A stretch of DNA of 24,072 nucleotides. Source: a virus. Positions within the stretch are counted from its first letter, which is position 1; each line of letters starts with the position of its first letter. The notes beneath the pieces were generated by a model, which worked only from the letters and a program-made list of their open reading frames with translations, made no database searches and was not told the DNA's origin. Of the stretch, positions 3,510 to 20,065 are shown one piece after another. The stretch spans positions 1 through 24,072 of IMG/VR virus record IMGVR_UViG_3300031696_000058. The stretch is one strand, 5' to 3'. The position numbers and the translations under genes are program-made.

Positions 3510-3538
3510 ATTATACCCTAATATAACGCGTTTGTACA
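3510..3538 (-). promoter_or_regulatory. Sigma70-like promoter for gp55-gp47-gp46
   Basis: On the minus strand, TGTACA (3533-3538), 17 bases and TATAAT (3510-3515) lie directly upstream of the gp55 ATG at 3496. The sequence extends to TGTACAAACGCG. Expected transcription starts about seven bases after TATAAT, leaving only about six bases of leader before the ATG, with no good Shine-Dalgarno sequence. The -35/-10 layout matches the promoter at 105-133. Confidence 0.72.
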
Positions 3539-6033: not shown

Positions 6034-6041
6034 TATTTATT
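6034..6041 (-). promoter_or_regulatory. Late promoter-like octamer before uvsY (7 of 8)
   Basis: The minus strand reads AATAAATA, one mismatch from TATAAATA, seven bases before the first uvsY ATG. T4 uvsY is also read late as well as earlier. A single mismatch in an AT-rich stretch makes chance possible. Confidence 0.4.
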
Positions 6042-6042
6042 C

Positions 6043-6510
6043 TTATTTTATGATCATAAATTCGTCGTATCTGAACGATACGTCGGCTTGTGCGTATTCA
6101 ACATCGTTTGATTGCACATTAAAATCAACACCGCTTAATGAAATGGGGAACGCGTTCTTAAACTGAAATTGCTTATTGACAATGTTGTGGCTTGACATTA
6201 CAGAAAGAATCATATCAGAGACTTCGTGTTTTTCAGTATTGTCCTTTAGCCAATTGTATATTTCTGTATAGTTCTTCATATCCTCATCAATAGCAAACCT
6301 CAAATTCAGTCCTCCGAACTGCCGCGTTTCACTTGTTTGATAGGAAATTCCTCCTCTAAAATTCATTTGAACTTCACCCGATGTCACTTCTGGCAGTGCA
6401 AAGCTTGTTATAAAGTACTCTGTATTAGCGTACTTCTGCCGGTTAATCGTGAGTCTAAAACCTACTGGAGAAAGAAGATTGGTGTTAGCAGTTAAATTAT
6501 TCTGAGCCAT
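6043..6510 (-). CDS. Tail tube-like (gp19 family) virion protein, exact role unclear
   Basis: This 155-residue protein looks like a relative of the T4 gp19 tail tube subunit. It starts with a loop and LSPVGFRLTINRQKY, then FITSFALPEV (like the QLPGS segment of gp19), a beta-rich middle with FGGLNLRFAIDEDMKNY and EIYNWL, and a beta-rich C-terminus. Such gp19-like proteins occur at tube ends or in baseplates (gp54, gp3 and relatives share tube-like folds). Marine T4-like phages often carry the tail completion protein gp3 near this place, so gp3 is one alternative and a tube initiator another. It has its own perfect late promoter right after the gp23 terminator, so it is expressed late as a virion protein. 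The family call is moderate; the exact role is open. Confidence 0.85.
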   Translation of the reverse strand: MAQNNLTANTNLLSPVGFRLTINRQKYANTEYFITSFALPEVTSGEVQMNFRGGISYQTSETRQFGGLNLRFAIDEDMKNYTEIYNWLKDNTEKHEVSDMILSVMSSHNIVNKQFQFKNAFPISLSGVDFNVQSNDVEYAQADVSFRYDEFMIIK

Positions 6511-6515
6511 AATAA

Positions 6516-6523
6516 TATTTATA
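6516..6523 (-). promoter_or_regulatory. Late promoter TATAAATA before the tube-like gene
   Basis: A perfect T4 late octamer on the minus strand, five bases before the ATG at 6510. It abuts the U-tract of the gp23 terminator. By T4 spacing the start site would fall on or near the A of the ATG, implying a leaderless mRNA. Confidence 0.75.
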
Positions 6524-6524
6524 C

Positions 6525-6556
6525 AAAAAAGAGGGCCCCCTTTCGAGGACCCTCTT
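6525..6556 (-). terminator. Rho-independent terminator of gp23
   Basis: In minus-strand RNA the arms are 6556-6547 (AAGAGGGUCC) and 6538-6529 (GGGCCCUCUU). They pair over 10 bp with one G-U wobble around an eight-base loop, followed by a run of U (6530-6525). It lies about 30 bases after the gp23 stop. A strong terminator here isolates the very highly expressed capsid gene from the genes to its left. Confidence 0.9.
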
Positions 6557-6586
6557 ATATTTGGTTTGATTTAAACCGTCTTAACT

Positions 6587-7912
6587 TTAAGCACCAACGT
6601 TAATATTCTTAACGCGGAAGGTACGGTAGTAAGGGTTGCTCAATGCACTTCCAATTCCGTCACCGGCTCCAGTCAACGGATTAGCAATAAGACCGTAACG
6701 GGTCTTAAAGGCAATCTTAGGCTGGAAGCTGTTCTCTCCAATAGCGCGAACCATTGTGAGAGGGACGTATGGCGCGTAGAACATACCAGCGTCATAAGGA
6801 GAAGATCCTTTATAACCAACAGTAGCGTAGTCAGTTGTAGAATATGGATCAACATACACCTTAAGACGCCCATTGAGAGTACCAGCAAATGTATTACCAG
6901 TAGCATCAACAGCGAGTTCACCTTCACCTGCGAAGGTGATCTTACCAGCTGCAGCAAGAGCTGAAGCAACATTGCTCGAACAGATAACGAAGTTACCTTT
7001 GCCGCGGCGTGTGTCAATAGCAATAGCGTTAGCTTCTTGCTCGATCTGGAAGATCAAAGACTGGAACCGCTCGACAGCCCAACGGCCATCAGCATCAGTA
7101 ACAAGGTCAAATACACCTGTTGTACCAACTCCACCCTTCTTACCAGTAACAACGATACTGCGAATCACCTCACGGTTGATTTCAGCAAGGATCTCACCGG
7201 AAAGAATGTTAGCAAGCTCGGACTCAGCGTCAAGGCCGTGTACAGCTTTGAGATCTTGAGCAAGCTCCATAGAGTACTCAGCCTTAAGCTGACGAGTCTT
7301 AGCAGTAACAGTCGACTTTTCGATAGTGAAGCCCATCTCAGCGAGATGCGTTCCGGTTTCACCTGCGCGCTCGGCGTCGATGGTTTCAAAACCAGTTCCT
7401 GTCGTAGCGGCAGTTACTCCAGCTACAGGTGGAGTAGCCCCTGGAACAGCAGTAACAGCCTCATGGTAGAGACCTTCACCGTGGGCGGGAGAGTCTGGAC
7501 CAGAGAAATCAGTGTCAGCCTCGTTGAAGAGAGCTTCAGGGTGATTACCCTCGACTGTGGTGATTGGGGTGTGATTAGGATTATAACGGGCTTTCATCGC
7601 AAAGATGAGGCCGGTAGGTCCGCTCATAGGCTGGACACCTGCAACATCATATGCAATAAGATTAGGCATTGCACGCCGCACCAATGAGATAAGCACTGGA
7701 TCAGGGCCTACAGCATTTAGTGTGCTTTGATTGGCATCAGCCTCGTTCATTACACCGAATGTGGATGCTTGAGACTGTTCGCGCATAGCAATCTCGGTAT
7801 TTTCGAGAAGTTTAGCGGTAACAGCTTTACGATAAGTGTCTTTGATAGGGGGAGCGTCAGCGTGTTCAAGCACTGGGCCCCACTTTTGGATTTCTTTTTC
7901 TGCGTTTAGCAT
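6587..7912 (-). CDS. 23: gp23, major capsid protein
   Basis: This is the main hexamer-forming head protein with an HK97-like fold. The 441-residue protein (T4 gp23 521) shows the conserved start of the family: KWGPVLEHADAPPI near residue 10, then VRRAMPNLIAYDVAGVQPM and GPTGLIFAMKARY around 78-110, and RTFRVKNINVGA at the C-terminus. The segment TFGVMNEADA aligns with the T4 maturation site, so the gp21 protease probably cuts after E57 (MNE|A). It is shorter than T4 gp23, mostly in surface loops. No gp24 vertex gene follows, unlike T4 but like cyanophages. A GAAAG/ACAAACTATT leader shared with gp19 and gp18 precedes the ATG. Confidence 0.96.
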   Translation of the reverse strand: MLNAEKEIQKWGPVLEHADAPPIKDTYRKAVTAKLLENTEIAMREQSQASTFGVMNEADANQSTLNAVGPDPVLISLVRRAMPNLIAYDVAGVQPMSGPTGLIFAMKARYNPNHTPITTVEGNHPEALFNEADTDFSGPDSPAHGEGLYHEAVTAVPGATPPVAGVTAATTGTGFETIDAERAGETGTHLAEMGFTIEKSTVTAKTRQLKAEYSMELAQDLKAVHGLDAESELANILSGEILAEINREVIRSIVVTGKKGGVGTTGVFDLVTDADGRWAVERFQSLIFQIEQEANAIAIDTRRGKGNFVICSSNVASALAAAGKITFAGEGELAVDATGNTFAGTLNGRLKVYVDPYSTTDYATVGYKGSSPYDAGMFYAPYVPLTMVRAIGENSFQPKIAFKTRYGLIANPLTGAGDGIGSALSNPYYRTFRVKNINVGA

Positions 7913-7927
7913 AATAGTTTGTCTTTC
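7913..7927 (-). promoter_or_regulatory. Ribosome-binding leader of gp23, shared with gp18 and gp19
   Basis: The minus strand reads GAAAGACAAACTATT directly before the ATG. The gp19 leader (GAAAGAAAAACTATT) and the gp18 leader (GAAAGGAACAAACTAGA) are nearly the same. GAAAG is the likely Shine-Dalgarno core. Sharing by three highly expressed virion genes suggests a translation signal, but a common T4-like late leader is also possible. Confidence 0.6.
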
Positions 7928-7945
7928 TTTTGTTGTTTGGTCGGG

Positions 7946-9349
7946 TTATTTGAAGCGAGAGAGAGTTGAAACATAGCGTTTCATGTCACCTGACAGATTG
8001 CTATTTGAATCAATTTCCCCCTCGACGATTGTTTTTACGTTAGTTGAACCAGTTGATTCAGTAATGATGGTTTCTTTCGAATCAGAATTAGAGAAGAAGC
8101 CTTCTTTAATAGTGGCTACCTTAGTTGCGAATGTTTCAGCATCTACAAAGTCAACCTCTTCAATGATAGAAGAGAGTTTAGCGACTTGTGTCGAAGCCAA
8201 ATCTGCAGTTGCTTCAGAGAGAATCTTTTCACGATGAAGACTTTCAACTTCTTCAGCGAGAACCGCATTCTTTCCTTGAACTCCTGCGAGTGACTCCTTA
8301 ACAGTAGTAACTTCATCGGAAAGTTGATCAACAAGATCAACCTTAGACTCAGGTACTTCAATGTAATGTTCAGTGAACACACCTTGAAGAGCATGCATGA
8401 AGTTTTCTGCGATTGTTGTGCGGAGCTTAGTATCAACGAATTCTTGATTATCTTCGATCCATGTTTCTACTACATAAGAAAGATAATCATCAATCTTAGT
8501 AACGAGCGACTCACGGATATAGACTACTTCTTCTTGAAGATCGTCATTATACTGATTTTCAAGAGATTCTTTGATCTCGACAACGCGGTTTGCAACAGCA
8601 CCTTCGAACAGTGTACCAACCTTAGCTTTAAAGCTTTCAGTCAATTCTTGTTCAGAGTCAGCAAGGATTTTAAGATCTTCAACATAGCTTTCGATCTCTT
8701 TTTCCTCGTCAATATCACCGCAAGAATCTTGGATAGCCTTATAAGAGGCTGTCAGCTGTTCTTTTTGCATAGTCTTAAGTTGACTGTACATTGCGTTGAC
8801 AATATCTGCCTTTGTTTTTGGCACTACTACTTCGCCTTCATCTTCACTCACATTAATACCTTTATAGGCGTTAACGAGTTGTGATTTCTTCATGGACTTA
8901 AGAGCGTCGAAACTTGCAGCAAGATAACCTGCCTTAGTCTTAACATTAGGAAGGTTGACTTCTTTTACAGAATCATCATCCTCATCTTTATCGTCCTTAT
9001 TCTCTACTGAATCATCCTCATCGGAATCTTCTTCTTCGGTTTTGGTTGTAGATTTGGCTTCTTCTACTTCTTCTTCAGAATCGTCATCATCCTCATCGGA
9101 ATCTTCTTCTTCTGTTTTAGTTGTAGATTTAGCTTCTTCTACTTCTTCTTCGGAATCGTCATCATCCTCATCGGATTCATCTTCGGATTCATTCTTCTTA
9201 GTTTCGCTAAGAAGCGCGTCTACGACGGCTTGAGTCAAAGTTTGTCTTGTGTCCTCAGCAACTTCTTCAGGATTATCCTGCACAAGCTCCTGATTCCCAA
9301 CAAGGTCCTTTTCCTCTACGTCTTCTATAATTTGGTTTTCGTCTGACAT
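7946..9349 (-). CDS. 22: gp22, prohead core scaffolding protein
   Basis: This is the main internal scaffold of the prohead, cut up by gp21 during maturation. I use the ATG at 9349 (MSDENQ); an in-frame ATG at 9388 would overlap the end of gp21 by 23 bases. The product is 467 residues, longer than T4 gp22 (269). After a short head it has a very acidic low-complexity region with a 25-residue tandem duplication (about residues 60-110), then two similar basic/helical blocks (KTKAGYLAASFDALKSMKKSQLVNAY and KTKADIVNAMYSQLKTMQKEQLT) and long alpha-helical, coiled-coil-rich sequence. The C-terminus ends SGDMKRYVSTLSRF. The position between gp21 and gp23 is diagnostic. Confidence 0.9.
   Translation of the reverse strand: MSDENQIIEDVEEKDLVGNQELVQDNPEEVAEDTRQTLTQAVVDALLSETKKNESEDESDEDDDDSEEEVEEAKSTTKTEEEDSDEDDDDSEEEVEEAKSTTKTEEEDSDEDDSVENKDDKDEDDDSVKEVNLPNVKTKAGYLAASFDALKSMKKSQLVNAYKGINVSEDEGEVVVPKTKADIVNAMYSQLKTMQKEQLTASYKAIQDSCGDIDEEKEIESYVEDLKILADSEQELTESFKAKVGTLFEGAVANRVVEIKESLENQYNDDLQEEVVYIRESLVTKIDDYLSYVVETWIEDNQEFVDTKLRTTIAENFMHALQGVFTEHYIEVPESKVDLVDQLSDEVTTVKESLAGVQGKNAVLAEEVESLHREKILSEATADLASTQVAKLSSIIEEVDFVDAETFATKVATIKEGFFSNSDSKETIITESTGSTNVKTIVEGEIDSNSNLSGDMKRYVSTLSRFK
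9022..9171 (-). repeat. 75-bp tandem duplication in gp22 (25-residue acidic repeat)
   Basis: Two 75-bp units (9022-9096 and 9097-9171) differ at only a few bases, mostly silent. Each encodes 25 residues rich in D, E and S with a KSTTKTEEE block. A partial third copy begins after 9171. The unit length is a multiple of three, so the frame is kept. Confidence 0.9.
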
Positions 9350-9365
9350 ATATTCTTGTTTTGAT

Positions 9366-10010
9366 TTAGAGTTTGGAGAGGAAATCATTGAAGATCCGTT
9401 CCTGAGCTTCGCTTACGCGCCCAAGTGGAACTTTATTAATTTCAGTCTCATATTCTTCAATTTGCTGAGGTTTGAGAAGGCCATTCTCCCAAATCCATTC
9501 GACCCCTTCCATAATGCCTTCAACGAAAGCAGAAGGAGCTGAAGGATCTTGGACAATATCAACAGTTGAAAGGACATAATCGCCCTTAACATATGATTTG
9601 CCATCCTTTTGCTCAACAGTACCCATACCACGGCTAGAGACACCTAACTTACATCCACCTTCAACGAGACCTTTCACGATTTTGCCCATTGGTGTATCAA
9701 GTATAAGTGCCTTTCCAACAACATCATTACCATTCCAATTAAGTTCGGTAATTCTGTGTGAAACTTTGTCTAAGTTAATCGCTGGTCCTTCGGGGTGATT
9801 CAATTCACCCACCGCCCGGCCAGTTTTTACTTGTTCTTTAACATATTTACCACAAGCTGATTCGAGAATAGCTTTTGGATAAATCCTGTTGTTACGGTTT
9901 TCTTGCTCCGCCTGCATAAAGACTCCTCTGATGAAAACGTTCTTTTCACCGTTGTCTTTTGCTTCAGTAATATACTCAAGCTGATCTAAATGTTCTGTGA
10001 TTAATTTCAT
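9366..10010 (-). CDS. 21: gp21, prohead core protein and maturation protease
   Basis: This is the serine protease that cuts scaffold and capsid proteins after head assembly. The 214-residue protein (T4 gp21 212) has the herpesvirus-like assemblin fold residues: catalytic His in GELNHPEGP (H72) and Ser in LGVSSRGMG (S125, next to S126). Further on, the TVDIVQDPSAPS segment resembles the family's conserved Asp region. RGVFMQAEQENRNNRIYP near residues 28-45 is the usual family start. The C-terminus (residues about 180-214) is likely self-processed. It follows a small gene by five bases and leads into gp22. Confidence 0.94.
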   Translation of the reverse strand: MKLITEHLDQLEYITEAKDNGEKNVFIRGVFMQAEQENRNNRIYPKAILESACGKYVKEQVKTGRAVGELNHPEGPAINLDKVSHRITELNWNGNDVVGKALILDTPMGKIVKGLVEGGCKLGVSSRGMGTVEQKDGKSYVKGDYVLSTVDIVQDPSAPSAFVEGIMEGVEWIWENGLLKPQQIEEYETEINKVPLGRVSEAQERIFNDFLSKL

Positions 10011-10015
10011 ACTTA

Positions 10016-10303
10016 TTATGCGTAAAAACCTACCTTAGTAAAGAGTACGTTAGCATTGGCACCTGTTCCAGCGGCTGCTGTCGATGCGAAAATTTGATCG
10101 GTTCCGTTTTTACGAACTATGATGTTACTTTTGTTTGGAACATAAAACGAAGCATAACGAGTTCCGGATGTTCCTGTTTCTATGTGCACGTGCGCTGCAG
10201 CAGTACCAGTATTTTGTACTAGAACTAGGTGAGCATCACTCACATTCGACGCTGCAGCAGTTAGTGATGCCGTTGCCGCGACTGTTAATGGTTCTATTTT
10301 CAT
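10016..10303 (-). CDS. Small beta-rich protein, possible capsid accessory or virion protein
   Basis: This 95-residue protein has no firm family. It begins MKIEPLTVAATASLTAA, is rich in Ala, Thr and Val with alternating hydrophobic residues, and ends VLFTKVGFYA, suggesting a small beta sandwich or barrel. I have seen this general look in small decoration or head-fibre proteins, but that is a loose resemblance. No transmembrane segment or signal peptide is visible. It lies between portal and protease in the place of T4 genes 67/68, yet it does not look like their acidic helical products. Late expression by read-through from 10741 is likely. No strong ribosome-binding site precedes the ATG. Confidence 0.7.
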   Translation of the reverse strand: MKIEPLTVAATASLTAAASNVSDAHLVLVQNTGTAAAHVHIETGTSGTRYASFYVPNKSNIIVRKNGTDQIFASTAAAGTGANANVLFTKVGFYA

Positions 10304-10318
10304 TTTTGTTAGTGTTGT

Positions 10319-10732
10319 TTAATCTTCCATTCCTAGTGTTAGTGATGCTATAGCATCTTTCAGATTGTCAAAATATCCTTTACCTGCTGCCTTCCCGCCA
10401 TCAAATCTAATTTTTCCCTTATCAAAAGAGAACTCGATAACAGAACCACCACCAAAATCGATTGAATTACCTTTTCGAGTATGGCCATGGCCCATTCCGA
10501 CAAAATATTTTATAAGCTTTTCGACGTCTTTTTCAGATGCTTCATTGACTCCTTCAAATGCTTCCTCGCAAGTGTTAGAAGTTGCTGCCTTATTGTAAAT
10601 CTCTCCGGTCAGGCCGACCATCCGCACCTCGAGGGATTGATTAAATTCGTGTTGTATCGCACTACCGAAGTCTTCTTGCGAAGCGGTATCAGTAACGATA
10701 CTTTTAAATAATTCTCTAGCAATATCACTCAT
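10319..10732 (-). CDS. Uncharacterised protein of the portal-protease gap
   Basis: This 137-residue protein is unrecognised. The first part (about residues 1-75) is helical and acidic (SDIARELFKSIVTDTASQ, EEAFEGVNEASEKDVEKL). The second part has a glycine-rich beta segment (HGHTRKGNSIDFGGGSVIEF, then FDKGKIRFDGGKAAGKGYF) and a helical end. It could be a core or inner head protein by position, since T4 places genes 67 and 68 here, but sequence gives no support for that identity. It has its own late promoter eight bases before the ATG and lies 35 bp beyond the gp20 stop codon. Confidence 0.8.
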   Translation of the reverse strand: MSDIARELFKSIVTDTASQEDFGSAIQHEFNQSLEVRMVGLTGEIYNKAATSNTCEEAFEGVNEASEKDVEKLIKYFVGMGHGHTRKGNSIDFGGGSVIEFSFDKGKIRFDGGKAAGKGYFDNLKDAIASLTLGMED

Positions 10733-10740
10733 ATCAATAC

Positions 10741-10748
10741 TATTTATA
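10741..10748 (-). promoter_or_regulatory. Late promoter TATAAATA after gp20
   Basis: A perfect octamer on the minus strand, eight bases before the ATG at 10732. It would transcribe the small gene, the 95-residue gene, gp21 and gp22. It lies in the gap after the gp20 stop codon. Confidence 0.7.
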
Positions 10749-10767
10749 GTTTTTATGGTTTACAGTT

Positions 10768-12279
10768 TTATATATCATCATCATCAATATCGGTATCTTC
10801 TTCTGCAGCTTCTTCTTCTGCAATTTCTTTGTCTAGCCGCATAATGTCTTCTTCAGACTGCTTAAGTATAACAGTGCGGACATACTTATCAGAGATGTAT
10901 TTGCCAACAATATCTTCAAGCATCTGTGACATCTCTAAACGTTCTCTGAGAATTTCAAATTCTTTGAGCTCGGCAAAATAGTTATCTTCGAGGAAGCTAA
11001 TGTTGATGCACTCCTCAATTTCCTCCCAGTCCTCTTCAGTAATAATTCCCTTAAGAATAAGCTGAATTCGCAAAGCATCCATTAACATAAACGAAAATTT
11101 CTTTCGAAGGCGGTCAATAAACTTCTGAAACTTGACCTCTTCTCTGGAAACTTCACTCGCTCTTCCTACGCTGAATGATGTTTCCTGTTCAAGCCTCGCA
11201 GTCGGCACGTTCAATGCACGATACAACTTACGTTGGAAGAATACCACATCTTCAATCTGACCTAAATTTTCTCCTCCTCCGAGAGTACTAATTTCAGTTC
11301 CTCTTCCACCTTCTCTACGAGGCAGATAGAAATCTTCAAGCATAGACATGTGTCGTCTGTCATCACTGATAGCACCAGTACTTGCATCATACACAAGCTT
11401 GTTTCTATAACGAGAAACGACTTGTTGGACGTATTCTTCAGCTTTACCTTTTGGAAGGTTACCAACGTCAATGTAGAAAATACGCCTTTCAGGAGCTCGC
11501 GATACACGATACACCACTAGAGAATCTTCCATATAGCGAAGCTGATTAACCAACTTCATTGCTTTGTGTAAGTGACCAACAGTGCGAGTTCTATCTGGAT
11601 CCATTATTCCAGAGTTAACTTGGATAATGGCATCATCTGAAAATTTTACACCGTTTAATCTATCAGCTGCATTAGAACCAAGATCCGGAGAATAAACGTA
11701 ATACTCATCAACGACTGTTTCGTATTCAAGCTTCGTATTAGGATCGAGTTTAGTTTCGACCTCTTTAACTTTGTTAATGTGTGTTGATTCAACTGGCCTG
11801 ATTTCAAGAATACCTCTCTTAGGATTCTTTGGGTCAATGATAACATTAAAGAATGATTTACCATCAACGTACCAATTGCGGAAGTACTCTGCGGCATTCC
11901 TATTAAATTTGTAGAGTTTCAACACCCGGTTGAACTCATCAATAATCTGCTTCTTTACTTTAGTTGGCAATTGCAGATCAATCATCGACAAAGACACCGG
12001 AGAAGATTCTTCAGATGACGCAATCGCGCTGTCAACAATATCAGAAACTGCAGCGTCGCACTCGGGTTGAAGCGAAGCCTCGCGGTATTTGCGGATCAAT
12101 TCGTGATCTGAAGTTCCGTCTGTGTCCGAAAGATTTACATACTGACCATAATATCCACCACCAGAAGTAACTGTGGTTGAAGCTTCATCGCTCTGTTTAG
12201 GTATAGGCGAGATTCCTTTAACCTCACCTTTGCCTGAGCTCTTTTTGCCAATTTCAAATCCAAATAAATTCATCGCCAT
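10768..12279 (-). CDS. 20: gp20, portal vertex protein
   Basis: The portal is a dodecameric ring at the head vertex through which DNA enters and to which the neck attaches. The 503-residue protein (T4 gp20 524) shows family blocks: DHELIRKYREASLQPECDAAVSDI near residue 60, FNRVLKLYKFNRNAAEYFRNW around 115-135, the FFNVIIDPKNPKRGI block, and FYIDVGNLPKGKAEEYV around 260-280, a region known from cyanophage g20 diversity studies. The C-terminal tail is highly acidic (EEEAAEED, DIDDDDI). Start codons MAM at 12279 and 12273 are both possible; the first gives MAMNLFGFEIGKK. A hairpin and a perfect late promoter lie directly upstream. Confidence 0.96.
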   Translation of the reverse strand: MAMNLFGFEIGKKSSGKGEVKGISPIPKQSDEASTTVTSGGGYYGQYVNLSDTDGTSDHELIRKYREASLQPECDAAVSDIVDSAIASSEESSPVSLSMIDLQLPTKVKKQIIDEFNRVLKLYKFNRNAAEYFRNWYVDGKSFFNVIIDPKNPKRGILEIRPVESTHINKVKEVETKLDPNTKLEYETVVDEYYVYSPDLGSNAADRLNGVKFSDDAIIQVNSGIMDPDRTRTVGHLHKAMKLVNQLRYMEDSLVVYRVSRAPERRIFYIDVGNLPKGKAEEYVQQVVSRYRNKLVYDASTGAISDDRRHMSMLEDFYLPRREGGRGTEISTLGGGENLGQIEDVVFFQRKLYRALNVPTARLEQETSFSVGRASEVSREEVKFQKFIDRLRKKFSFMLMDALRIQLILKGIITEEDWEEIEECINISFLEDNYFAELKEFEILRERLEMSQMLEDIVGKYISDKYVRTVILKQSEEDIMRLDKEIAEEEAAEEDTDIDDDDI

Positions 12280-12286
12280 AATATAT

Positions 12287-12294
12287 TATTTATA
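12287..12294 (-). promoter_or_regulatory. Late promoter TATAAATA before gp20
   Basis: A perfect octamer on the minus strand, seven bases before the first gp20 ATG. It follows the hairpin at 12300-12331 with only five bases between them, so a terminator-promoter pair is likely. Confidence 0.75.
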
Positions 12295-12299
12295 GTAAA

Positions 12300-12331
12300 C
12301 CACAGTGAGCGCTGGGGGATGCTCACTGTGG
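12300..12331 (-). terminator. Hairpin after gp19, possible weak terminator
   Basis: A perfect 11-bp inverted repeat (CCACAGTGAGC at 12300-12310, GCTCACTGTGG at 12321-12331) has a 10-base loop. In minus-strand RNA it is followed by only UUUA before the late octamer of gp20. It may terminate gp19 mRNA, stop 3' decay, or partly separate gp19 from gp20. It is symmetric, so it would form on either strand. Confidence 0.65.
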
Positions 12332-12347
12332 CCACTAACTTGTTTGT

Positions 12348-12869
12348 TTAAGAAGTAGTATTTGACTCCCAATACTGATAAGCGAATTCAACTGTGAATT
12401 CCTCAATAGTATCGGCTGAATCATTACTTACATCGATAGACGAAACACTCACTGGCCATGCCGACCTGAATGTGTATGTCTTAATAGTGTTACCTGCTTT
12501 ATCCAATTGATCAACTGAAAGATCAGTTTGATAATCAGATGGGTTTGTTAAACCAGTATTTGATACGTGTGTGTTTATTCCATTCTGCCACCGCTCCATA
12601 GCGTCGCGAACTTCAAACCCTGTATCATTAATAATAGTTACCGACCAGTTCTCGTATGTACGATCACCTGCTATTTTAAGTTGACGCCCACGATATGGTA
12701 CATCAATCTGTCCAACTGTACTGCCGGGAAGCTGAGCTGCTTTGCACATGAATTGTGCAAGCTCGCTATCTCCTGCAGCAAATCCTGGGAAAGTAAGGGA
12801 GGCCTTAAAAAGGTTTGCCCTTGCTCCACCACCGATAAGCTTTGCTTTAAAATCGTCTACTGTTGCCAT
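12348..12869 (-). CDS. 19: gp19, tail tube protein
   Basis: gp19 forms the hexameric rings of the inner tail tube. The 173-residue protein (T4 gp19 163) shows the usual family pattern: MATVDDFKAKLIGGGARANLF at the start, FMCKAAQLPGSTVGQIDVPY around 40-60, RTYENWSVTIINDTGFEVRDAMERW, and a C-terminal EEFTVEFAYQYWE. It lies 32 bases after gp18 with a GAAAGAAAAACTATT leader. A near match to the late octamer (AATAAATA, 12888-12895) sits 18 bases upstream. Confidence 0.95.
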   Translation of the reverse strand: MATVDDFKAKLIGGGARANLFKASLTFPGFAAGDSELAQFMCKAAQLPGSTVGQIDVPYRGRQLKIAGDRTYENWSVTIINDTGFEVRDAMERWQNGINTHVSNTGLTNPSDYQTDLSVDQLDKAGNTIKTYTFRSAWPVSVSSIDVSNDSADTIEEFTVEFAYQYWESNTTS

Positions 12870-12895
12870 AATAGTTTTTCTTTCTTTTATTTATT
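12870..12895 (-). promoter_or_regulatory. Leader and late-like octamer of gp19
   Basis: AATAAATA (12888-12895, one mismatch) is followed by GAAAGAAAAACTATT (12870-12884) and the ATG. The spacing puts the expected start site about 12 bases before the ATG, with GAAAG inside the short leader. gp19 may also be read through from gp18. Confidence 0.5.
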
Positions 12896-12901
12896 TAGTT
12901 A

Positions 12902-15013
12902 TTAGTTACCAGTTCCAACGATCTCGGAGAATTCAACACCAGTTCTCGTCGCAACAAAGTTCAGAGTAATGAAGTTGATTGAACGAGCAGGTTTGATGTA
13001 GATATCTGCTACAAATCGATTAGTATCAATTACCTCTCCAGTATTATTTGTTTCGTCACAAACAACGAGGAAGTCAGTGATGCCTCGCCGTCCTTTGACA
13101 TCTCTAAGGAATGGCTCAGTCATGTTTCTGAACATTGCTCGAGTGAACTCATCGTTGAGCTCAAAGAGTTGGTATTTAGAAGCAGTTGAAATTGCTTTTT
13201 CAAGAACCATGAACAATCTCCGAACATTGATTCGATCAAACGCAGATGGTTTACTTTGTGCTGTCTTATCACCGAAGAGCAAGATACCTTGACCGGGCTC
13301 AGAAATGATTGGGTTAACACCCTCTTTATAGAGAGCGTCTCTATCAGCTTTAGTTGGATTCCACTTCAACTTAGTAACTCCGAGGAGATTACCGCGGTTA
13401 TAGCCTGCAGGCGAGAACCAAGGATCGTTAGTGTCATCTGTCCTTGCACAAAGACCAGCGACGTGGCCGTTTGCTGGAATATATCGATAAGTGTCATTAT
13501 ACTTATTATAGACATAAACTGCAGTAGAATCGAGAACAACATATGAGCTATTGTAACTTAAATCACCTGTAACATCAGCTGCTGAATCAGCAGTCGGATG
13601 AGGTGAAATAAATCCAATACAATCTTTTCGAGTAGTACCACATATCGCTACGATTTTACTACCAATGTCTGTTGCATCGTTATCGTCGCCTTCCGCGAAC
13701 ATCAGATTGACATCAATCGCGTCTGGGTTAGAAAACAGCATTAGCGCAGTCGTAACACTTGGTGTCTTATCGCCGGCATCGGCCTCACTAGAACCGTCAA
13801 CTCCATTCACTAGCTCGTAATCAAACATGTTGTAGTTGGTAGCGACTGTAGCTATTGTAATAGTAATATATTCGTCAGCATCTGAACTCGTCGCTCCAAG
13901 AAGAGTTTCTGGGATTGTTATAGTATCACCTACGACAAAACCTGAACCACCATTGACGAGTGTAACGCTACCGGGATTATCGATGCTATATCCACCGCTG
14001 CCGCCGGTGAGGACAATAGTAAATGTTGCTCCTCCAGAAGAAGCATTCGACAGTGTAACTCCGGCATCTTCAGTAGAAACATTGTAAGTTCCAAGTGCAA
14101 GGTCGCTAGAGGAAGCATCAGTAGTCAGCACATTGGTTACAGTCGCGATCGAAGCTCCAATAGCTGTAGAGTTAAATAGTTTTGAAGTTGAACCAGCTGT
14201 TCCAGGACCGGCGTACTCAACACCGCCTATTGCTTTTGCATTAAATTGTGTTTTGAACGCGCCCTCATTAATGTAAACATACGCTGAATCACGGTTAATC
14301 ACTGTTTTGTAGTAATTAACTCCGCCATCTTTAACAGCATCAGAGTATAAGGAAAGACCTTCGAACATTTCTAAAACTGCTCCGCGAACTCCACTAAAGA
14401 ATCCATCTTCGTCAACCACCGCGATATGAACTTCATCATTCGCACCTGCGAGATCGTTGCTAGATGCCCAAGCACTTGTACCAGCGTCGGCGCTGACCAT
14501 CCCGTCCAAACTTACCAATGAGAATTTACCTGCAGTTTGTGAAGCTGTTGGAGCAAGAACCGCAGATGCAATATACACCTTAAGGCTGTTACCAGCTTTT
14601 CCTGGATAGCGCGCTTGAACAACTCCAGCATTAGTACCGAATGAGCTTAGCCCGTCGAAAACGTCCTTGTTGTTAATTGTTATAACGCTGGTGTTACTCG
14701 CAGATGGAGAACCAGCTGCATTTTTTGCGTTTGCTGAACATGCTCGCGAGACGCGGAGCGTGTTACTATATTTTAAAAAGCTTGCGGCCTGCAGAAATGA
14801 AGTATAGTTGTCATAGTCACCTCCAGTGGTTGTATCCACTGGTGCGCCATATTCTTTAATTAGTTCCTTCTCAGAAGATACTAATCCTACTTCTCCTACT
14901 GGGCCCCAGCTGAAGTGACCTGCGTATGCACCGATTGATGTCGATACTGCGGGGATCACATTAGTCAAATCTACTTCTTTGACCTCTACTCCTGGTGATA
15001 CCTGAAATGCCAT
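12902..15013 (-). CDS. 18: gp18, contractile tail sheath protein
   Basis: The sheath subunit contracts around the tail tube on infection. The 703-residue protein (T4 gp18 659) starts with the family signature PGVEVKEVDLTNVIPAVSTS and GAYAGHFSWGPVGEV. It ends with the conserved inner domain (DRINVRRLFMVLEKAI, FRNMTEPFLRDVKGRRGI, INFITLNFVATRTGVEF). The middle, about residues 300-395, holds a beta-rich glycine-serine region (IVLTGGSGGYSI, NGGSGFVVGDTITIPE) that looks like an inserted, outward-facing domain. In T4 the equivalent domains are also outside and variable. It has a 65-base leader from a perfect late promoter. Confidence 0.96.
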   Translation of the reverse strand: MAFQVSPGVEVKEVDLTNVIPAVSTSIGAYAGHFSWGPVGEVGLVSSEKELIKEYGAPVDTTTGGDYDNYTSFLQAASFLKYSNTLRVSRACSANAKNAAGSPSASNTSVITINNKDVFDGLSSFGTNAGVVQARYPGKAGNSLKVYIASAVLAPTASQTAGKFSLVSLDGMVSADAGTSAWASSNDLAGANDEVHIAVVDEDGFFSGVRGAVLEMFEGLSLYSDAVKDGGVNYYKTVINRDSAYVYINEGAFKTQFNAKAIGGVEYAGPGTAGSTSKLFNSTAIGASIATVTNVLTTDASSSDLALGTYNVSTEDAGVTLSNASSGGATFTIVLTGGSGGYSIDNPGSVTLVNGGSGFVVGDTITIPETLLGATSSDADEYITITIATVATNYNMFDYELVNGVDGSSEADAGDKTPSVTTALMLFSNPDAIDVNLMFAEGDDNDATDIGSKIVAICGTTRKDCIGFISPHPTADSAADVTGDLSYNSSYVVLDSTAVYVYNKYNDTYRYIPANGHVAGLCARTDDTNDPWFSPAGYNRGNLLGVTKLKWNPTKADRDALYKEGVNPIISEPGQGILLFGDKTAQSKPSAFDRINVRRLFMVLEKAISTASKYQLFELNDEFTRAMFRNMTEPFLRDVKGRRGITDFLVVCDETNNTGEVIDTNRFVADIYIKPARSINFITLNFVATRTGVEFSEIVGTGN

Positions 15014-15030
15014 TCTAGTTTGTTCCTTTC
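15014..15030 (-). promoter_or_regulatory. Ribosome-binding leader of gp18
   Basis: The minus strand reads GAAAGGAACAAACTAGA before the gp18 ATG, two bases longer than the matching gp19 and gp23 leaders. AAAGGA is a good Shine-Dalgarno core. The TAG inside it ends a 13-codon frame starting at 15056. Confidence 0.6.
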
Positions 15031-15056
15031 AATGTTTTATTAATAAGTTTATTCAT
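15015..15056 (-). CDS. Putative 13-codon leader peptide before gp18
   Basis: An ATG at 15056 opens a 13-codon frame (MNKLINKTLKGTN) closed by TAG at 15015-15017, one base before the gp18 ATG. It lies wholly inside the late mRNA leader of gp18. The stop-to-start spacing would allow translational coupling. A frame this short can arise by chance, and only the layout supports it. Confidence 0.2.
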   Translation of the reverse strand: MNKLINKTLKGTN

Positions 15057-15078
15057 AACAAGATTGTCTCAATATTTC

Positions 15079-15086
15079 TATTTATA
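15079..15086 (-). promoter_or_regulatory. Late promoter TATAAATA of gp18
   Basis: A perfect octamer on the minus strand, 65 bases before the gp18 ATG, in the 84-bp gap after the gp17 stop codon. This is the only late octamer in the window far enough from its gene to give a normal-length leader. It probably drives gp18 and, by read-through, gp19. Confidence 0.8.
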
Positions 15087-15097
15087 TAATCTTTACT

Positions 15098-16693
15098 TTA
15101 CAGATCGTGCCACGCTCTTGCTTCGTTCGCCATTTCTTCATGTCTATTTTCGCCCTTCGAAGCATTGTTTATAATACCAAATGGTGGAACATCGTTCTCT
15201 ATCTGCTCCATTTTTTCTTTGAATAGCATCTCCTTTAGATCGACTGTCGATATATCTCCGAACGCTTCAGATGATACAAACCATGCAAACATAACTAAAT
15301 TCATAACTAGATCATCGTGGTTTCCAGAGCTTGCCTCATAAGAACTGCCTTTCACCTCGAATGTAGATAATTCTAAAATAGTCTGTTCATCTATGATATT
15401 TATCTTCCCTAATTCTACTAAATCTTTTAGGTTAGAGCAGCCGATCCGCTTGATCCTTTTTGTCATCATTACCCCGATGCCATTCTTACGAACGCTTGAT
15501 TCGACAAACATATTTTCGTATTCGTGCTCATAGTATACATCATTACACACGACTATTCCAACATCATTACTTTCAATGATAACTAAGGCTTCATTATACT
15601 CTCGTGCAACTCTTACAATAATATCTCCAAAGATCATCGGAGATATCATGTTATCTCTGAACGTTGCAACTTGTCTAAATTTACCAAATGTTGCATCAAT
15701 AACTGTAATAGTCGAATAGTCTTGACCCCGACCCTTAGAAACGTCAACAGTCATTACATACTGGTGGTCATTAATAGGATCTTCATAGTATTTTACACCG
15801 CGGTGGAATCTTTCAGCAGAATGCATCTGCAAACCGAGTAGAGTGTTAGAGGAAATGAGTGTGTTCGAAGTTCCAATAAAACTATTGCCAAATTCCTGAT
15901 CAAACTGTAATTCTGAAGTGTTGGCGATAGTCAGTGCTTTCCACGCTTCATCACGACCAGGAACATCGAACCAATCTATGCGGAATGGTACAAATTCGTT
16001 CTTCTTTTTCTGTGCAGCTTCCCACAAGCCGCAGAAAATATTTCCAATGCCATTCGCAGTAGATGTGATAATTACTTTAGTTTCGGTGCCAGCAGAAACC
16101 ACCGGGTATGTAGATGTATAAAACTCACTGGCATTTTCAACGAATGCGAACTCATCAAGGAAAAGTAGATTGACAGAAAGTCCTCGAATAGAACTTGCTG
16201 AAGTAGCTGCCGCGATTATTCTTGAATTATTAGAAAACTCAATTGAACCTTTATTAAGAGCTTTACATCCTGGTTGTAAAAAGAATGGAAGATTCTCAAG
16301 AGCCAGTGTGATGCGGCTCAACATCTCTCTCGCAGTAGATCCTTTGTTAGCAAGTATCGCAACGGTCTTTTCAGCGTGAAAAATAACATACCACAGAATG
16401 TAAATTACCGATGAAATAGATTTACCTGATTGGCGACATGCGAGGACAATGTTGAAGCGATTCTCGTTGAACTGCTTGAACATGTTCTTTTGATACTCGT
16501 ACGGGATAAATGGCACTAACCCCTTATCCAGCGATATCACTTTAACATATTTCTCAACGAAATAGATAGGATCATTCATACACTTCACGTACTCATCAAC
16601 CTCTTCCGCTGAGAACTGAGTCTTAAGCCCGTCCTTTTTCACTAGCGGGTTACCCATGTAACCGCCATTACCATTTACTAAAATTTCAGACAT
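15098..16693 (-). CDS. 17: gp17, terminase large subunit (ATPase and nuclease)
   Basis: This is the packaging motor. It cuts concatemeric DNA and pumps it into the head through the portal. The 531-residue protein (T4 gp17 610) has the Walker A-like CRQSGKS at residues 86-92, typical of T4-type terminases, Walker B LLFLDEF at 176-182 with D180 and E181, and the coupling motif TSTANG at 210-215. The RNase H-like nuclease starts at VMTVDVSKGRGQDYS with D317 as first metal ligand, continues with ALVIIESND (E374) and the late acidic HDDLVMN. All key residues are present. Its ATG overlaps the end of gp16 by eight bases. Confidence 0.96.
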   Translation of the reverse strand: MSEILVNGNGGYMGNPLVKKDGLKTQFSAEEVDEYVKCMNDPIYFVEKYVKVISLDKGLVPFIPYEYQKNMFKQFNENRFNIVLACRQSGKSISSVIYILWYVIFHAEKTVAILANKGSTAREMLSRITLALENLPFFLQPGCKALNKGSIEFSNNSRIIAAATSASSIRGLSVNLLFLDEFAFVENASEFYTSTYPVVSAGTETKVIITSTANGIGNIFCGLWEAAQKKKNEFVPFRIDWFDVPGRDEAWKALTIANTSELQFDQEFGNSFIGTSNTLISSNTLLGLQMHSAERFHRGVKYYEDPINDHQYVMTVDVSKGRGQDYSTITVIDATFGKFRQVATFRDNMISPMIFGDIIVRVAREYNEALVIIESNDVGIVVCNDVYYEHEYENMFVESSVRKNGIGVMMTKRIKRIGCSNLKDLVELGKINIIDEQTILELSTFEVKGSSYEASSGNHDDLVMNLVMFAWFVSSEAFGDISTVDLKEMLFKEKMEQIENDVPPFGIINNASKGENRHEEMANEARAWHDL

Positions 16694-17099
16694 CTACTGA
16701 TTCATCTTTACTTCTGCCTTTAAGATACTTTTGCAATTCTGTAGTTGATCCAACAAAAATAGAATTATTAGTAGTTGTGCTTGAAGGCCCACCTTTTTCT
16801 TGAGTGATGTCTTTCCGCATCTTCTGCAATTTAACAAGATCGTGTGTCATCTCGCTAGTGTGTTTTATCATTGTTGACAATACTTCAAATGCTCTAGGAT
16901 GCTCTGACTCCGATGCAAGCGCCATCATCTGATTGATCGATTCGCACGACTGATCGATTAGCATCTTCATTTTATCTCGAGAGTACTCAACATCTGTCTC
17001 GGTGTCACTCGCTATCTGATAACCTGAAACTTCAGTTTGAGGACTTTGCGTTATTTCAAGATTTTCTGCTTCTTCAATTATTTCATCTTCACGATCCAT
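16686..17099 (-). CDS. 16: gp16, terminase small subunit
   Basis: The small terminase binds DNA and activates gp17. The 137-residue protein (T4 gp16 164) has an acidic N-terminus, then central helices SRDKMKMLIDQSCESINQM and PRAFEVLSTMIKHTSEMTHDLVKL, which form the oligomerising coiled coil in this family. A C-terminal segment NNSIFVGSTTELQKYLKG resembles the family's conserved end. I chose the ATG at 17099 (MDREDEII); a TTG at 17111 is possible but less likely. The start overlaps the gp15 stop by 11 bases, and the end overlaps gp17. Position and helices make the call good. Confidence 0.88.
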   Translation of the reverse strand: MDREDEIIEEAENLEITQSPQTEVSGYQIASDTETDVEYSRDKMKMLIDQSCESINQMMALASESEHPRAFEVLSTMIKHTSEMTHDLVKLQKMRKDITQEKGGPSSTTTNNSIFVGSTTELQKYLKGRSKDESVDV

Positions 17100-17871
17100 G
17101 ATCAAAACCAAATGTAGTTGTTATAGTATCGGTGCTATCAAGCGGCGCTGTATCGCCCGCTGCCACTGCAACACGGATATTTGTATTATTAACGCCGTAA
17201 GGATTAGCTGTTTTTAGGCTTGTGTCGACGCTATCAAATAAGAACGTGTCAACCTTTCTTATGAGGCCTTGCTTACTTACTCCACCGGCAAACTTCACTT
17301 TCATACTAAAATCAAGAGTGTACATGATAGTTCTCCTTGTATCAAAATCACCCTCATAATCATCGTTCATTGAGATTGAATTTAGTATGATAGGAACATC
17401 AGTAGTAGTGTTCTTCCCTTCAAGTTCTTTTATACTTACAGTGTACTCAGGAGAAAATGTAGGTAGAATCTGTTCTACTATTTGTAGTGCTTCATCTTGA
17501 TTGAGAGCATAAATATTTAATTGCATTCCGATAATATATGGAACACTTTGATACAGAGTATTAACATTATCGCTATCACCATCAATCGGAATCATCTTCT
17601 TGTTGAAGCGATTCAGCTTACTCTCGTTGTCATACTCTATCGAAGTAATCTCGAAACTAATCCTAGGTAGTTTGATCGCGATCGTTTCTGAAGTAGAACC
17701 AGATGCATCTGAACTGATCCGTGCAAGAAATTTCTTCCTAGGACCATACGCAACAGGCACTTTTTCTTCTGTGGCTCCAGGTCGAAGGATCTTAATGTTG
17801 TTGAATAGTGTACCAAAAACAGCTACAGATGTTCTGACTGTTTTGTTATAAAAATGTGTTCCGCTTAGCAT
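17089..17871 (-). CDS. 15: gp15, tail sheath stabiliser / tail terminator
   Basis: gp15 caps the tail at the head end, holding sheath and tube and joining to the neck. The 260-residue protein (T4 gp15 272) starts MLSGTHFYNKTVRTSVAVFGTLFNNI and has VPVAYGPRKKFLARI, PRISFEITSIEYD and RKVDTFLFD, all in the order expected of the family. YQSVPYIIGMQLNIYALNQDE near residue 110 is another recognised block. It follows gp14 after three bases and overlaps gp16. The operon is read from the late promoter before gp13. Confidence 0.93.
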   Translation of the reverse strand: MLSGTHFYNKTVRTSVAVFGTLFNNIKILRPGATEEKVPVAYGPRKKFLARISSDASGSTSETIAIKLPRISFEITSIEYDNESKLNRFNKKMIPIDGDSDNVNTLYQSVPYIIGMQLNIYALNQDEALQIVEQILPTFSPEYTVSIKELEGKNTTTDVPIILNSISMNDDYEGDFDTRRTIMYTLDFSMKVKFAGGVSKQGLIRKVDTFLFDSVDTSLKTANPYGVNNTNIRVAVAAGDTAPLDSTDTITTTFGFDHGS

Positions 17872-17874
17872 ATC

Positions 17875-18777
17875 TTAAGTTGTTATGTTTGGCATTCCGA
17901 ATGGATTATTCTTAGTAAAATCAATGAATGAATTACCTTCAGTTTCAAAATCTGTATTGTCCGCGTAAGGATCATTATCGTCGATCGTGCTAAATGCATC
18001 TACTGTTGAAATTACGTAAGAAGGATTAGGACTATTCTGTGATCCTGATACATTACCCCATGAGCCCTCTGTTTTAACAAAGCCAGTATTGCTACTATCA
18101 CTTGCGAGCTGGTTGGTGACATCTATATAATTAGTTCCGATAACGGCAACTTCACCTGTCACTGTTATTGTTCCGTTAGTCTGAGTAACATCTTCACCAA
18201 CAGCAAATGTTCCTGCTCCGCTTCCTAAGTTTAAGCGAGTTCGTACACCGAACTTTATTTCAAACTTGTCAACCTCTGATACACCCGTATCAATCTCTTG
18301 ATTGTTGTATTCGAACTGTTGACATGACAATTTAAATGTAGGAACGTTCTGAAGTTGATAGAACGGGGTTTCATCTTCAACGTAATTAATTTCAAATAAA
18401 CCATTAACAAGTGGGAAGTATATCAGATCACCTTCTTGAGGTCTAACTTCTACTGGATCCTGGAACCTCGATACGAGTTGTTCCCAACGTCTATTTGAAA
18501 CAATAAGATTGATGCTGTCTCGTATTTCTACGCCGAACTTTGAAAGCAAGTCACCATCACCACCGAAACCATCAGTGTTTTCAACATACATTTCAATCTG
18601 ATGCGCAGCACCAAATTTCGCAAGGGCATCCTCGTTAAATATAGAATCAGTATTTACAATACTCCTAGGAATATAAAACACATCATGTCCATAAATCTTA
18701 AGAGCCTCTATAGTAATATCTTCATAGAGTCTCTTTTCAGGAGTTGACCCCTGATTAAAATATACGTTCCTTGGCAT
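17875..18777 (-). CDS. 14: gp14, neck protein
   Basis: gp14 and gp13 build the neck that seals the filled head and accepts the tail. The 300-residue protein (T4 gp14 256) starts MPRNVYFNQGSTPEKRLYED and has DVFYIPRSIVNTDSIFNED, GAAHQIEMYVENTDGFGGDG and DLIYFPLVNGLFEINYVED, patterns I know from marine T4-like neck proteins. Residues about 180-265 form a Gly/Ser/Thr-rich beta insertion (LGSGAGTFAVGEDVTQTN) which explains the added length. A good AGGATAAG ribosome site precedes the ATG, only a few bases after the gp13 stop codon. Confidence 0.92.
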   Translation of the reverse strand: MPRNVYFNQGSTPEKRLYEDITIEALKIYGHDVFYIPRSIVNTDSIFNEDALAKFGAAHQIEMYVENTDGFGGDGDLLSKFGVEIRDSINLIVSNRRWEQLVSRFQDPVEVRPQEGDLIYFPLVNGLFEINYVEDETPFYQLQNVPTFKLSCQQFEYNNQEIDTGVSEVDKFEIKFGVRTRLNLGSGAGTFAVGEDVTQTNGTITVTGEVAVIGTNYIDVTNQLASDSSNTGFVKTEGSWGNVSGSQNSPNPSYVISTVDAFSTIDDNDPYADNTDFETEGNSFIDFTKNNPFGMPNITT

Positions 18778-18778
18778 C

Positions 18779-19537
18779 TTATCCTATAAAATCTAATGGT
18801 GGTAATTCGTGTTCAAGACGAATCTTCTCTTCAAGCTTTTCAATATCAGCGATAGCATCATCGTATATTTGGCGGCCGTTCATCGTAACACCGCCAGGTA
18901 GAACCATACCCTCGAATTTAATAAGATTCAATCCCCATTGCCTCTTAACTAATGCAGTAGTATATCTCTTTAAAAACATATCGTTGTATACCGTAGTGAA
19001 ACTCTCTGGATCAACAGCGCTGTATCCGTCAAACACGACATAGTTTCCTACTCCGAGATCTTTTAGAGCATCTGTGTGAAAATTCACTCGTCCCTTATGT
19101 CGACTGTATTGGATCATTTCATAGACGCCGTTTATATTACGGTCGATTAATGAAAGATACTGCTGAGTCAATTCGTAATTAACGATACCGCCAGATGCTC
19201 CGCCCAAATCGAAAATATCATTTAGGTGCATTTGATAATCTACTGAAAAAAGCGAGGTTCCAGAATTAGTATTACTTATATTAAATACATTATTGATCGA
19301 TAAGATATTTGTAGCAGGAGAGATCGCGATATATCCATTAGTAATATCAGTTTGAGTTACCTGATGCTTCAAGAGATTACGAACTACAGCATCACTATGA
19401 AAATCTTGATAGAATTGGATTGCCTCATCAACACGGTCTTCGATCTGATCGTCATCAACATTAATTTCGATGACAGGATGGCCTAATGCTCTTAAGCAAT
19501 AATCAATAAGTTTCTGTCTTGTATTTGGTATAGCCAT
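18779..19537 (-). CDS. 13: gp13, neck / head completion protein
   Basis: gp13 completes the head after packaging, together with gp14. The 252-residue protein (T4 gp13 309) has family features: LIDYCLRALGHPVIEINVDD near the N-terminus, QIEDRVDEAIQFYQDFHSDAV, and a C-terminal helix block FLKRYTTALVKRQWGLNLIKF and LPGGVTMNGRQIYDDAIADI. It is the first gene of the 13-14-15-16-17 operon. A perfect late octamer lies six bases before the ATG and a one-mismatch copy lies further upstream. Confidence 0.93.
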   Translation of the reverse strand: MAIPNTRQKLIDYCLRALGHPVIEINVDDDQIEDRVDEAIQFYQDFHSDAVVRNLLKHQVTQTDITNGYIAISPATNILSINNVFNISNTNSGTSLFSVDYQMHLNDIFDLGGASGGIVNYELTQQYLSLIDRNINGVYEMIQYSRHKGRVNFHTDALKDLGVGNYVVFDGYSAVDPESFTTVYNDMFLKRYTTALVKRQWGLNLIKFEGMVLPGGVTMNGRQIYDDAIADIEKLEEKIRLEHELPPLDFIG

Positions 19538-19543
19538 ATTATC

Positions 19544-19551
19544 TATTTATA
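19544..19551 (-). promoter_or_regulatory. Late promoter TATAAATA before gp13
   Basis: A perfect octamer on the minus strand, six bases before the gp13 ATG. It would drive the neck and terminase operon. By T4 spacing, only one or two leader bases would remain. Confidence 0.65.
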
Positions 19552-19586
19552 TAATAGCAGATGAAGAACGCGCTGCGTACAGTTTT

Positions 19587-19594
19587 TATTTATC
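19587..19594 (-). promoter_or_regulatory. Second late-like octamer upstream of gp13
   Basis: GATAAATA (one mismatch) lies 49 bases before the gp13 ATG and would give a normal leader of about 44 bases. It offers an alternative to the very close octamer at 19544-19551. The 89-bp gap otherwise shows no clear terminator. Confidence 0.4.
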
Positions 19595-19626
19595 TAATGT
19601 TATCTCGGCATTGATCTGCTTAAGCG

Positions 19627-20049
19627 TTAAACAACTGTATCATCGACGACTGGTGCTTCCTCTGCGAGTGTTTCATTAGCAGCTGCTTCCGCCGCGGCGA
19701 ATTCCGCTTCAGCGAGTTGTTCTGCAGCCATCATGACTTCAAGTTCTTGCTGTTGATGCGCAATCAAGACAGGTAATGCATCGCCAACTGCTTTAAATGC
19801 TAAGGCAGCTTCGGGAAATGCTTCTATTGTCTGCCAAAATGGAACTGTCACGTTACGACTATCCTCAATCAGTCGTTCTCCGCTTTCTTGGTCAAAGGGG
19901 CAATAGTTAATGCTTATATAGTCATTCCCAGATGCTTCAGCCGCGTTCACTGTTAGATCAAGGATATACGCCTGAGCAAAGTCTTTAGCTGGAGAAGCGA
20001 TTACAGCATCGCGCGAAGTAGGTTCGGTTAGTTGAATAATTACTGACAT
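19627..20049 (-). CDS. Unrecognised small late protein beside the tail fibre
   Basis: This 140-residue protein has no family I recognise. The N-terminal two-thirds mix beta and alternating polar residues (SVIIQLTEPTSRD, AYILDLTVNAAEAS, NDYISINYCPFDQESGERL). The last third is a long Ala/Glu/Gln-rich helix (residues about 95-130), likely coiled coil, ending in an acidic tail VVDDTVV. I chose the ATG at 20049 because the in-frame upstream start is a TTG and a perfect late octamer lies eight bases before this ATG. Expression is late. Lying after a tail fibre gene, it may help fibre assembly or attach to it, but nothing in its sequence shows this. Confidence 0.8.
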   Translation of the reverse strand: MSVIIQLTEPTSRDAVIASPAKDFAQAYILDLTVNAAEASGNDYISINYCPFDQESGERLIEDSRNVTVPFWQTIEAFPEAALAFKAVGDALPVLIAHQQQELEVMMAAEQLAEAEFAAAEAAANETLAEEAPVVDDTVV

Positions 20050-20057
20050 GGTATTAT

Positions 20058-20065
20058 TATTTATA
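20058..20065 (-). promoter_or_regulatory. Late promoter TATAAATA before the 140-residue gene
   Basis: A perfect octamer on the minus strand, eight bases before the ATG at 20049. It lies in the 73-bp gap after the tail fibre stop codon. Confidence 0.7.

Follow-up and report, generated by a model that had tools for sequence, protein, structure and literature searches.

Late transcription in T4 is a textbook system whose late genes use Shine-Dalgarno (SD) leaders, and the locus described here raises the question of what late mRNAs look like when the late-promoter octamer lies directly ahead of the start codon. The window analysed (the whole 24,072-nt stretch of IMG/VR record IMGVR_UViG_3300031696_000058, positions 1 to 24,072) is a 40.6% G+C fragment of a T4-like genome. 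Its main genes lie on the minus strand in the order gp46, gp47, gp55, a 153-residue gene, uvsW, uvsY, a tube-like gene, gp23, gp22, gp21, a 95-residue gene, a 137-residue gene, gp20, gp19, gp18, gp17, gp16, gp15, gp14, gp13, a 140-residue gene and a fibre gene, and the annotation of phage C48C1 has the same core gene order. PHROG matching covered gp55, uvsY, both tube genes, gp20, gp13 and the 137- and 140-residue genes, with none found for the last two. The genes that bear on the question are these:

2918-3496, minus strand: gp55, a late sigma factor expected to read the octamers (PHROG 234 late sigma transcription factor, about 9e-51; 8.7e-51)
5577-6026, minus strand: uvsY (PHROG 231 UvsY-like, 5e-34)
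6043-6510, minus strand: tail-tube-like gene, a second gp19-like paralogue, predicted leaderless (PHROG 45 tail tube, 4e-26)
10319-10732, minus strand: 137-residue gene, conserved in relatives
10768-12279, minus strand: gp20 portal protein (PHROG 213, 1.3e-181)
18779-19537, minus strand: gp13 head-tail adaptor (PHROG 211, 4e-40)
19627-20049, minus strand: 140-residue gene (ATG at 20047-20049)

The two tail-tube paralogues belong to one family (PHROG 45), the predicted leaderless copy (6043-6510) standing after gp23 and the led copy (12348-12869) after gp18, and C48C1 carries the same pair. Elsewhere in the window, the gp22 scaffold gene contains an acidic tandem repeat at 8955-9233 (SDEDDDDSEEEVEEAKSTTKTEEE). 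The listed TTG start of gp47 (1858-2943) overlaps gp55, and the ATG at 2914-2916 (MRVAIINDTHSG) is the more likely start. The long fibre gene (20123-24072), open at the window end, holds many degenerate repeats (AANTAKISYTAASAV and similar).

A preliminary description of this DNA had reported six octamers ending 5 to 8 bases before start codons. All six were recovered at the positions given there, on the minus strand and thus on the same strand as their genes, and the gaps agree:

6516-6523, minus strand: TATAAATA late-promoter octamer, 5 nt (6511-6515, TTATT) from the ATG of the tube-like gene; predicted leader 0 nt
19544-19551, minus strand: TATAAATA octamer, 6 nt from gp13
12287-12294, minus strand: TATAAATA octamer, 7 nt from gp20; predicted leader 0-2 nt
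6034-6041, minus strand: AATAAATA octamer, 7 nt from the uvsY ATG; predicted leader 2 nt
10741-10748, minus strand: TATAAATA octamer, 8 nt from the 137-residue gene; predicted leader 3 nt
20058-20065, minus strand: TATAAATA octamer, 8 nt from the 140-residue gene; predicted leader 3 nt

The window holds eight copies of TATAAATA where 1.66 are expected, a number attained in 0 of 100 dinucleotide shuffles, although promoters as a class lie outside the model of that control and the comparative test below is the stronger one. Five perfect octamers lie 5-8 nt ahead of one of the 21 starts against 0.003 expected (Poisson P ~2e-15), which bears out the earlier judgement that the repeated layout is unlikely to be chance. 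Other octamers fall off this layout, including one at 4320 inside uvsW, one at 22924 on the plus strand, and the contrast cases at gp18 and gp19:

15079-15086, minus strand: octamer of gp18 (sheath), 65 nt ahead of the ATG, SD present
15024-15029, minus strand: SD sequence of gp18, AAAGGA
12888-12895, minus strand: AATAAATA, 18 nt ahead of the tail tube gene gp19 (12348-12869)

No octamer adjoins gp23 in the window, which counts against the reading preferred below, gp23 being an expected highly expressed late gene.

Comparison across related phages was one of the checks that the preliminary description had proposed, and it showed a decidedly non-random spacing. Four IMG/VR scans (with gp20, gp13, the tube-like gene and gp55), in which protein similarity was the sole criterion, gave 309 loci totalling 3.05 Mb; once near-duplicates had been discarded, 944 NATAAATA sites were left, and distance was taken to the next ATG opening at least 50 codons. 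The octamer-to-ATG gap has its maximum at exactly 5 nt (106 of the 944 deduplicated sites), followed by 34 sites at 6, 28 at 7 and 14 at 8 nt, a trough between 11 and 16 nt, and a renewed rise at 17-24 nt, where the sites bear SD sequences. For TATAAATA the relatives have 85 sites at gap 5, whereas 55 other permutations of the octamer average 1.8 and never exceed 12. When each protein family was counted as one site, gap 5 retained 28.1 against 9.2 for the next highest gap, with 40 families having a gap-5 site. A further 277 kb of clade contigs, nearly all new sequence from the same contigs but including one contig part already used (L407-L409), repeated the pattern, with 13 sites at gap 5, 7 at 6, 4 at 7, 2 at 8 and 2 at 10-16. 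The 5-nt gap was also considered as part of an extended promoter motif; this was rejected, the gap sequences being diverse apart from the last base.

The position of the maximum corresponds to what is known of T4. The T4 late octamer spans -13 to -6 (PMC1524935), so the sixth base after the octamer is +1, and a gap of 5 is the distance that places the A of the ATG at this position. Of 152 SD-led octamer promoters of the same phages, 73 have the pyrimidine-purine step at positions 5/6 and 46 at the next most frequent place; in T4, RB49, C48C1 and cyanophages the step is likewise commonest at 5/6 (33 of 75). These led promoters thus provide independent support for a predicted +1 at the T4 position and disfavour a start site differing from that of T4, one of the options left open in the preliminary description. 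At gap-5 sites, base -1 is C or T in 98% of cases compared with 48% before SD genes. Sites with a gap of 6 nearly always have a pyrimidine as the sixth base (40 of 42; purine 2/42), which makes the A of the ATG the first usable purine, and at gaps 7-10 position 6 is often A (17 of 32 sites at gap 7, 11 of 16 at gap 8, 12 of 13 at gap 10). Gap 5 and most gap 6 sites would therefore be predicted to yield a 5'-terminal AUG, and gaps 7-10 leaders of 2-5 nt at most.

Applied to the window, these rules predict a split. The tube-like gene and gp13 would begin with a 5'-terminal AUG, position 6 being T at gp13 and the A of the ATG its likely +1. For gp20, where positions 6 and 7 are both T and the next purine is the A of the ATG, either outcome is predicted; uvsY and the 137- and 140-residue genes would carry leaders of 2-3 nt. 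A +1 held strictly to position 6 would give predicted leaders of 2-3 nt to four of these six genes, a point against the preferred reading in that E. coli ribosomes use such leaders less well than a 5'-terminal AUG. The preliminary proposal of leaderless late mRNAs is thus strongly supported by comparison in its substance, but its wording needs adjustment: "leaderless or nearly so" is safer in view of those four genes, and the trait is not confined to late genes.

Sequences around the start codons are consistent with this proposal. Starts at gap 5 are almost exclusively ATG (105 ATG, 1 GTG and 1 TTG; n=107). SD-like tetramers occur at 5 of 209 sites with gaps of 5-8 and at 138 of 243 with gaps of 17-40, in line with the earlier remark that no clear SD is present at close octamers, although this lack is partly forced in that the octamer fills the SD position and no SD would then be possible on the predicted transcript. 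Over all clade genes the strongest k-mers upstream of starts are those of the octamer (ATAA 4.2x, TATA 3.6x) and not the SD; AGGA is enriched 2.6x in the clade versus 6.2x in C48C1 and 8.4x in T4. Openness of the AUG in gap-5 transcripts is barely above that of shuffles (0.75 vs 0.67). Terminator-like T-runs lie within 14 nt upstream of the octamer at 30% of gap-5 sites compared with 8% of led sites. The tube-like gene has one such arrangement, in which a hairpin with its T-tract, the octamer and the ATG follow one another with almost no spacer, and relatives show the same GGGCCCTCTTTTTT-TATAAATA order:

6529-6556, minus strand: intrinsic terminator-like hairpin of 12 pairs, its T-tract abutting the octamer at 6516-6523

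Taken together, we consider it highly probable that these phages make leaderless or nearly leaderless late mRNAs from gp55-dependent octamers placed at the start codons. In the proposed mechanism, RNA polymerase with gp55 would open the octamer and begin transcription either at the A of the start codon or 1-3 nt ahead of it, leaving the first gene of each such late transcript with no room for an SD, and the ribosome would take the 5'-terminal or near-terminal AUG directly. Other genes of the same phage, such as gp18, would retain a normal leader with an SD, and the compact terminator-octamer-ATG layout would shield its gene from read-through while leaving no leader space. The spacing, start-codon purity, initiator rule, orthologue conservation and clade restriction are observed, and from them we predict where the transcripts begin and how ribosomes enter.

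The layout was also compared among orthologues. All 67 tube-like (gp19-like) orthologues of at least 57% identity keep the octamer at 5-8 nt without an SD, as do 37 of 38 close orthologues of gp20 and 8 of 9 of gp13; in distant orthologues of these last two genes the octamer, where there is one, mostly stands at least 17 nt away, commonly with an SD. Among gp18 orthologues of at least 57% identity none is of the leaderless type and 13 of 14 have an SD. Gaps in 137-residue gene orthologues are 8 or 11, and those of uvsY orthologues are mostly 7 but also 10-13, a spread that counts against the preferred reading. As judged from these layouts, the predicted expression mode, leaderless or SD-led, is fixed per gene within the clade. 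In a gp20 tree, 51 rows are rich in gap 5-8 sites, and 48 of them group in a single clade of 54 rows to which the window belongs (SH-aLRT support 98); the gap 5-8 label requires 9 changes versus 40.8 in shuffles. Whole genomes, counted at gap 5 (and at gaps 5-8), gave 0 (0) for T4, RB49, Syn9 and Cr30, 1 (1) for C48C1 and S-PM2, 2 (3) for P-SSM4 and MED4-213, 9 (12) for HTVC008M, 5 (6) for Mosig and 3 (3) for Melnitz, with 160 of 164 kb of RB49 and 180 of 181 kb of MED4-213 covered. Overall, the trait dominates in the clade of the window, reaches a moderate level in SAR11 and OM43 phages, and is scarce or missing in coliphages and cyanophages. Close relatives (L188, L261, L263) also conserve a pair of neighbouring tRNA genes, tRNA-Thr(tgt) and tRNA-Asn(gtt).

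Promoters of the sigma-70 type show a similar placement. Of the clade promoters matching TTTACA-N17-TATAAT with a start within 60 nt, 35 of 81 lie 6-9 nt from it. In other relatives this holds for 8 of 98, and the majority stand 20-36 nt away. Genes with such a promoter 6-9 nt ahead include gp43, gp44, gp45 and gp55, named by resemblance of their N-termini, and the loci concerned are L432, L433, L447, L261, L268, L285, L250 and others. A sigma-70 +1 would coincide with the ATG at gap 6; TATAAT has 16 sites at this gap, several of them matches inside coding sequence, and no permuted hexamer has more than 7. The gp55 gene of the window has a promoter of this type at a somewhat greater distance, giving a predicted leader of ~6-7 nt, close to the six or so bases expected earlier:

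3510-3538, minus strand: sigma-70-type promoter of gp55 (TGTACA 3533-3538, 17 nt, TATAAT 3510-3515, 13 nt to the ATG)

The leaderless layout thus does not appear to be confined to late genes. Since replication-gene promoters of the sigma-70 type also lie beside starts, the likeliest explanation of the trait is a host or infected-cell state that translates leaderless mRNA well. We lean, with appreciably less assurance than for the late genes, towards the wider view that this lineage of marine T4-like phages may be largely leaderless across temporal classes, with both gp55 late promoters and host sigma-70 replication-gene promoters fused to starts.

Other explanations of the layout must be weighed against this model. 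The octamers could be true late promoters with a variable start site, producing leaders of 1-5 nt that are translated as ordinary short-leader messages lacking an SD; the populated gaps 7-10 with A at position 6 suit this account, as do uvsY and the 137- and 140-residue genes of the window, but a modal gap of exactly 5 in 40 families and the avoidance of purine at position 6 of gap-6 sites make it unlikely. AT-rich start regions aid initiation without an SD, and uvsY follows closely on the gp19-like gene so that read-through is possible; on these grounds the octamers might act mainly as AT-rich, unstructured translation enhancers on read-through transcripts from upstream promoters, an option also raised in the preliminary description. 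We regard this as highly improbable: it leaves the exact spacing, the ATG-only starts and the pyrimidine at -1 unexplained, permutations of the same composition have no peak, terminators stand directly ahead of several octamers, and other genes have the same octamer 17-60 nt ahead of the start together with an SD. Least credible of all, to the point of being negligible, is that the listed start codons are wrong and that translation really begins further downstream, after internal SD sequences. Starts of gp20 and uvsY do differ by one or two residues among orthologues, but LFGFEI in gp20 and RQ-LIDYC in gp13 come right after the start in leaderless and SD-led orthologues alike, and the N-termini of both groups start at about the same residue, which indicates that the start calls are right.

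Leaderless or nearly leaderless expression from gp55 octamers both resembles and departs from known systems. The window shares with T4 late promoters (gp55/gp33/gp45, TATAAATA) the octamer and the predicted +1, carries NATAAATA octamers ahead of late genes in the coding orientation, and encodes a gp55 homologue. The gp33 co-activator and gp45 clamp that T4-type late promoters need are absent from the window; the annotation of C48C1 includes a clamp gene, and relatives have gp45-like starts. T4 differs in having SD leaders and no octamer less than 12 nt from the start of an ORF of at least 50 codons (0 at 5-8 nt), whereas here the promoter touches the start codon. Features that define leaderless mRNAs, namely AUG starts, no upstream SD (partly forced) and a fixed, short, conserved promoter-to-start spacing, are found in the relatives. 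In the lytic Thermus phage phiYS40, post-early (middle/late) transcripts mostly have no leaders, with IF2 reported up and IF3 down (PMC3594737). That phage, its host and its promoter system are unrelated to those of the window clade, and leaderlessness was reported there from experiment whereas here it is inferred from sequence; the clade also differs in placing the leaderless class beside SD-led late genes and extending it to replication-gene promoters. In Deinococcus-Thermus a promoter -10 element at a fixed short spacing before the ORF gives leaderless mRNA (PMC12340547), there at chromosomal genes with a host sigma factor and here with a phage late sigma. Leaderless phage mRNAs are thus already known from Thermus phages, and their predicted occurrence in T4-like phages with gp55 promoters would be new; among the open-access papers that our search covered, none describes leaderless late mRNAs for T4-like phages.

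The nearest cultured parallels are the Pelagibacter phages HTVC008M and Mosig and the OM43 phage Melnitz, which have octamers exactly 5 nt before starts but as a minor class, with an SD at 46-57% of starts versus 13% in the window clade. These three phages encode bS21 (HTVC008M, W03:91237-91392; Mosig, W16:9983-10132; Melnitz, W17:35461-35619), which was not found in T4, cyanophages or C48C1. A role for bS21 as a phage-borne helper of leaderless translation is not supported, the protein being present in 0 of 34 window-clade records, all of them fragments. As to the host, a psbA/psbD-type gene was found in 0 of 14 clade records while the S-PM2 positive control was detected, which is suggestive evidence against a cyanobacterial host. 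The tRNA-Asn body of a relative, used for host assignment by tRNA, had no exact match in genome contigs. In 400 kb of SAR11 chromosome, with host starts taken mechanically, there was no clear TATAAT peak before ATG as a leaderless signature; an initial look at 1.3 Mb was skewed by redundancy among loci next to the 16S gene.

In summary, our analysis suggests that a single marine clade has coupled the same promoter type to another mode of translation. Orthologous genes occur in both states, and the switch between SD-led and leaderless layouts can be followed gene by gene. The layout tells gene finders where starts lie and helps to locate late promoters in marine myophages, where an earlier survey of pelagimyophages could not predict them satisfactorily (PMC7029224). 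It also predicts a host that translates leaderless mRNA well. If leaderlessness does extend across the lineage, either host ribosomes would favour a 5'-terminal AUG, or the phage would induce a change in initiation of the kind reported for phiYS40.
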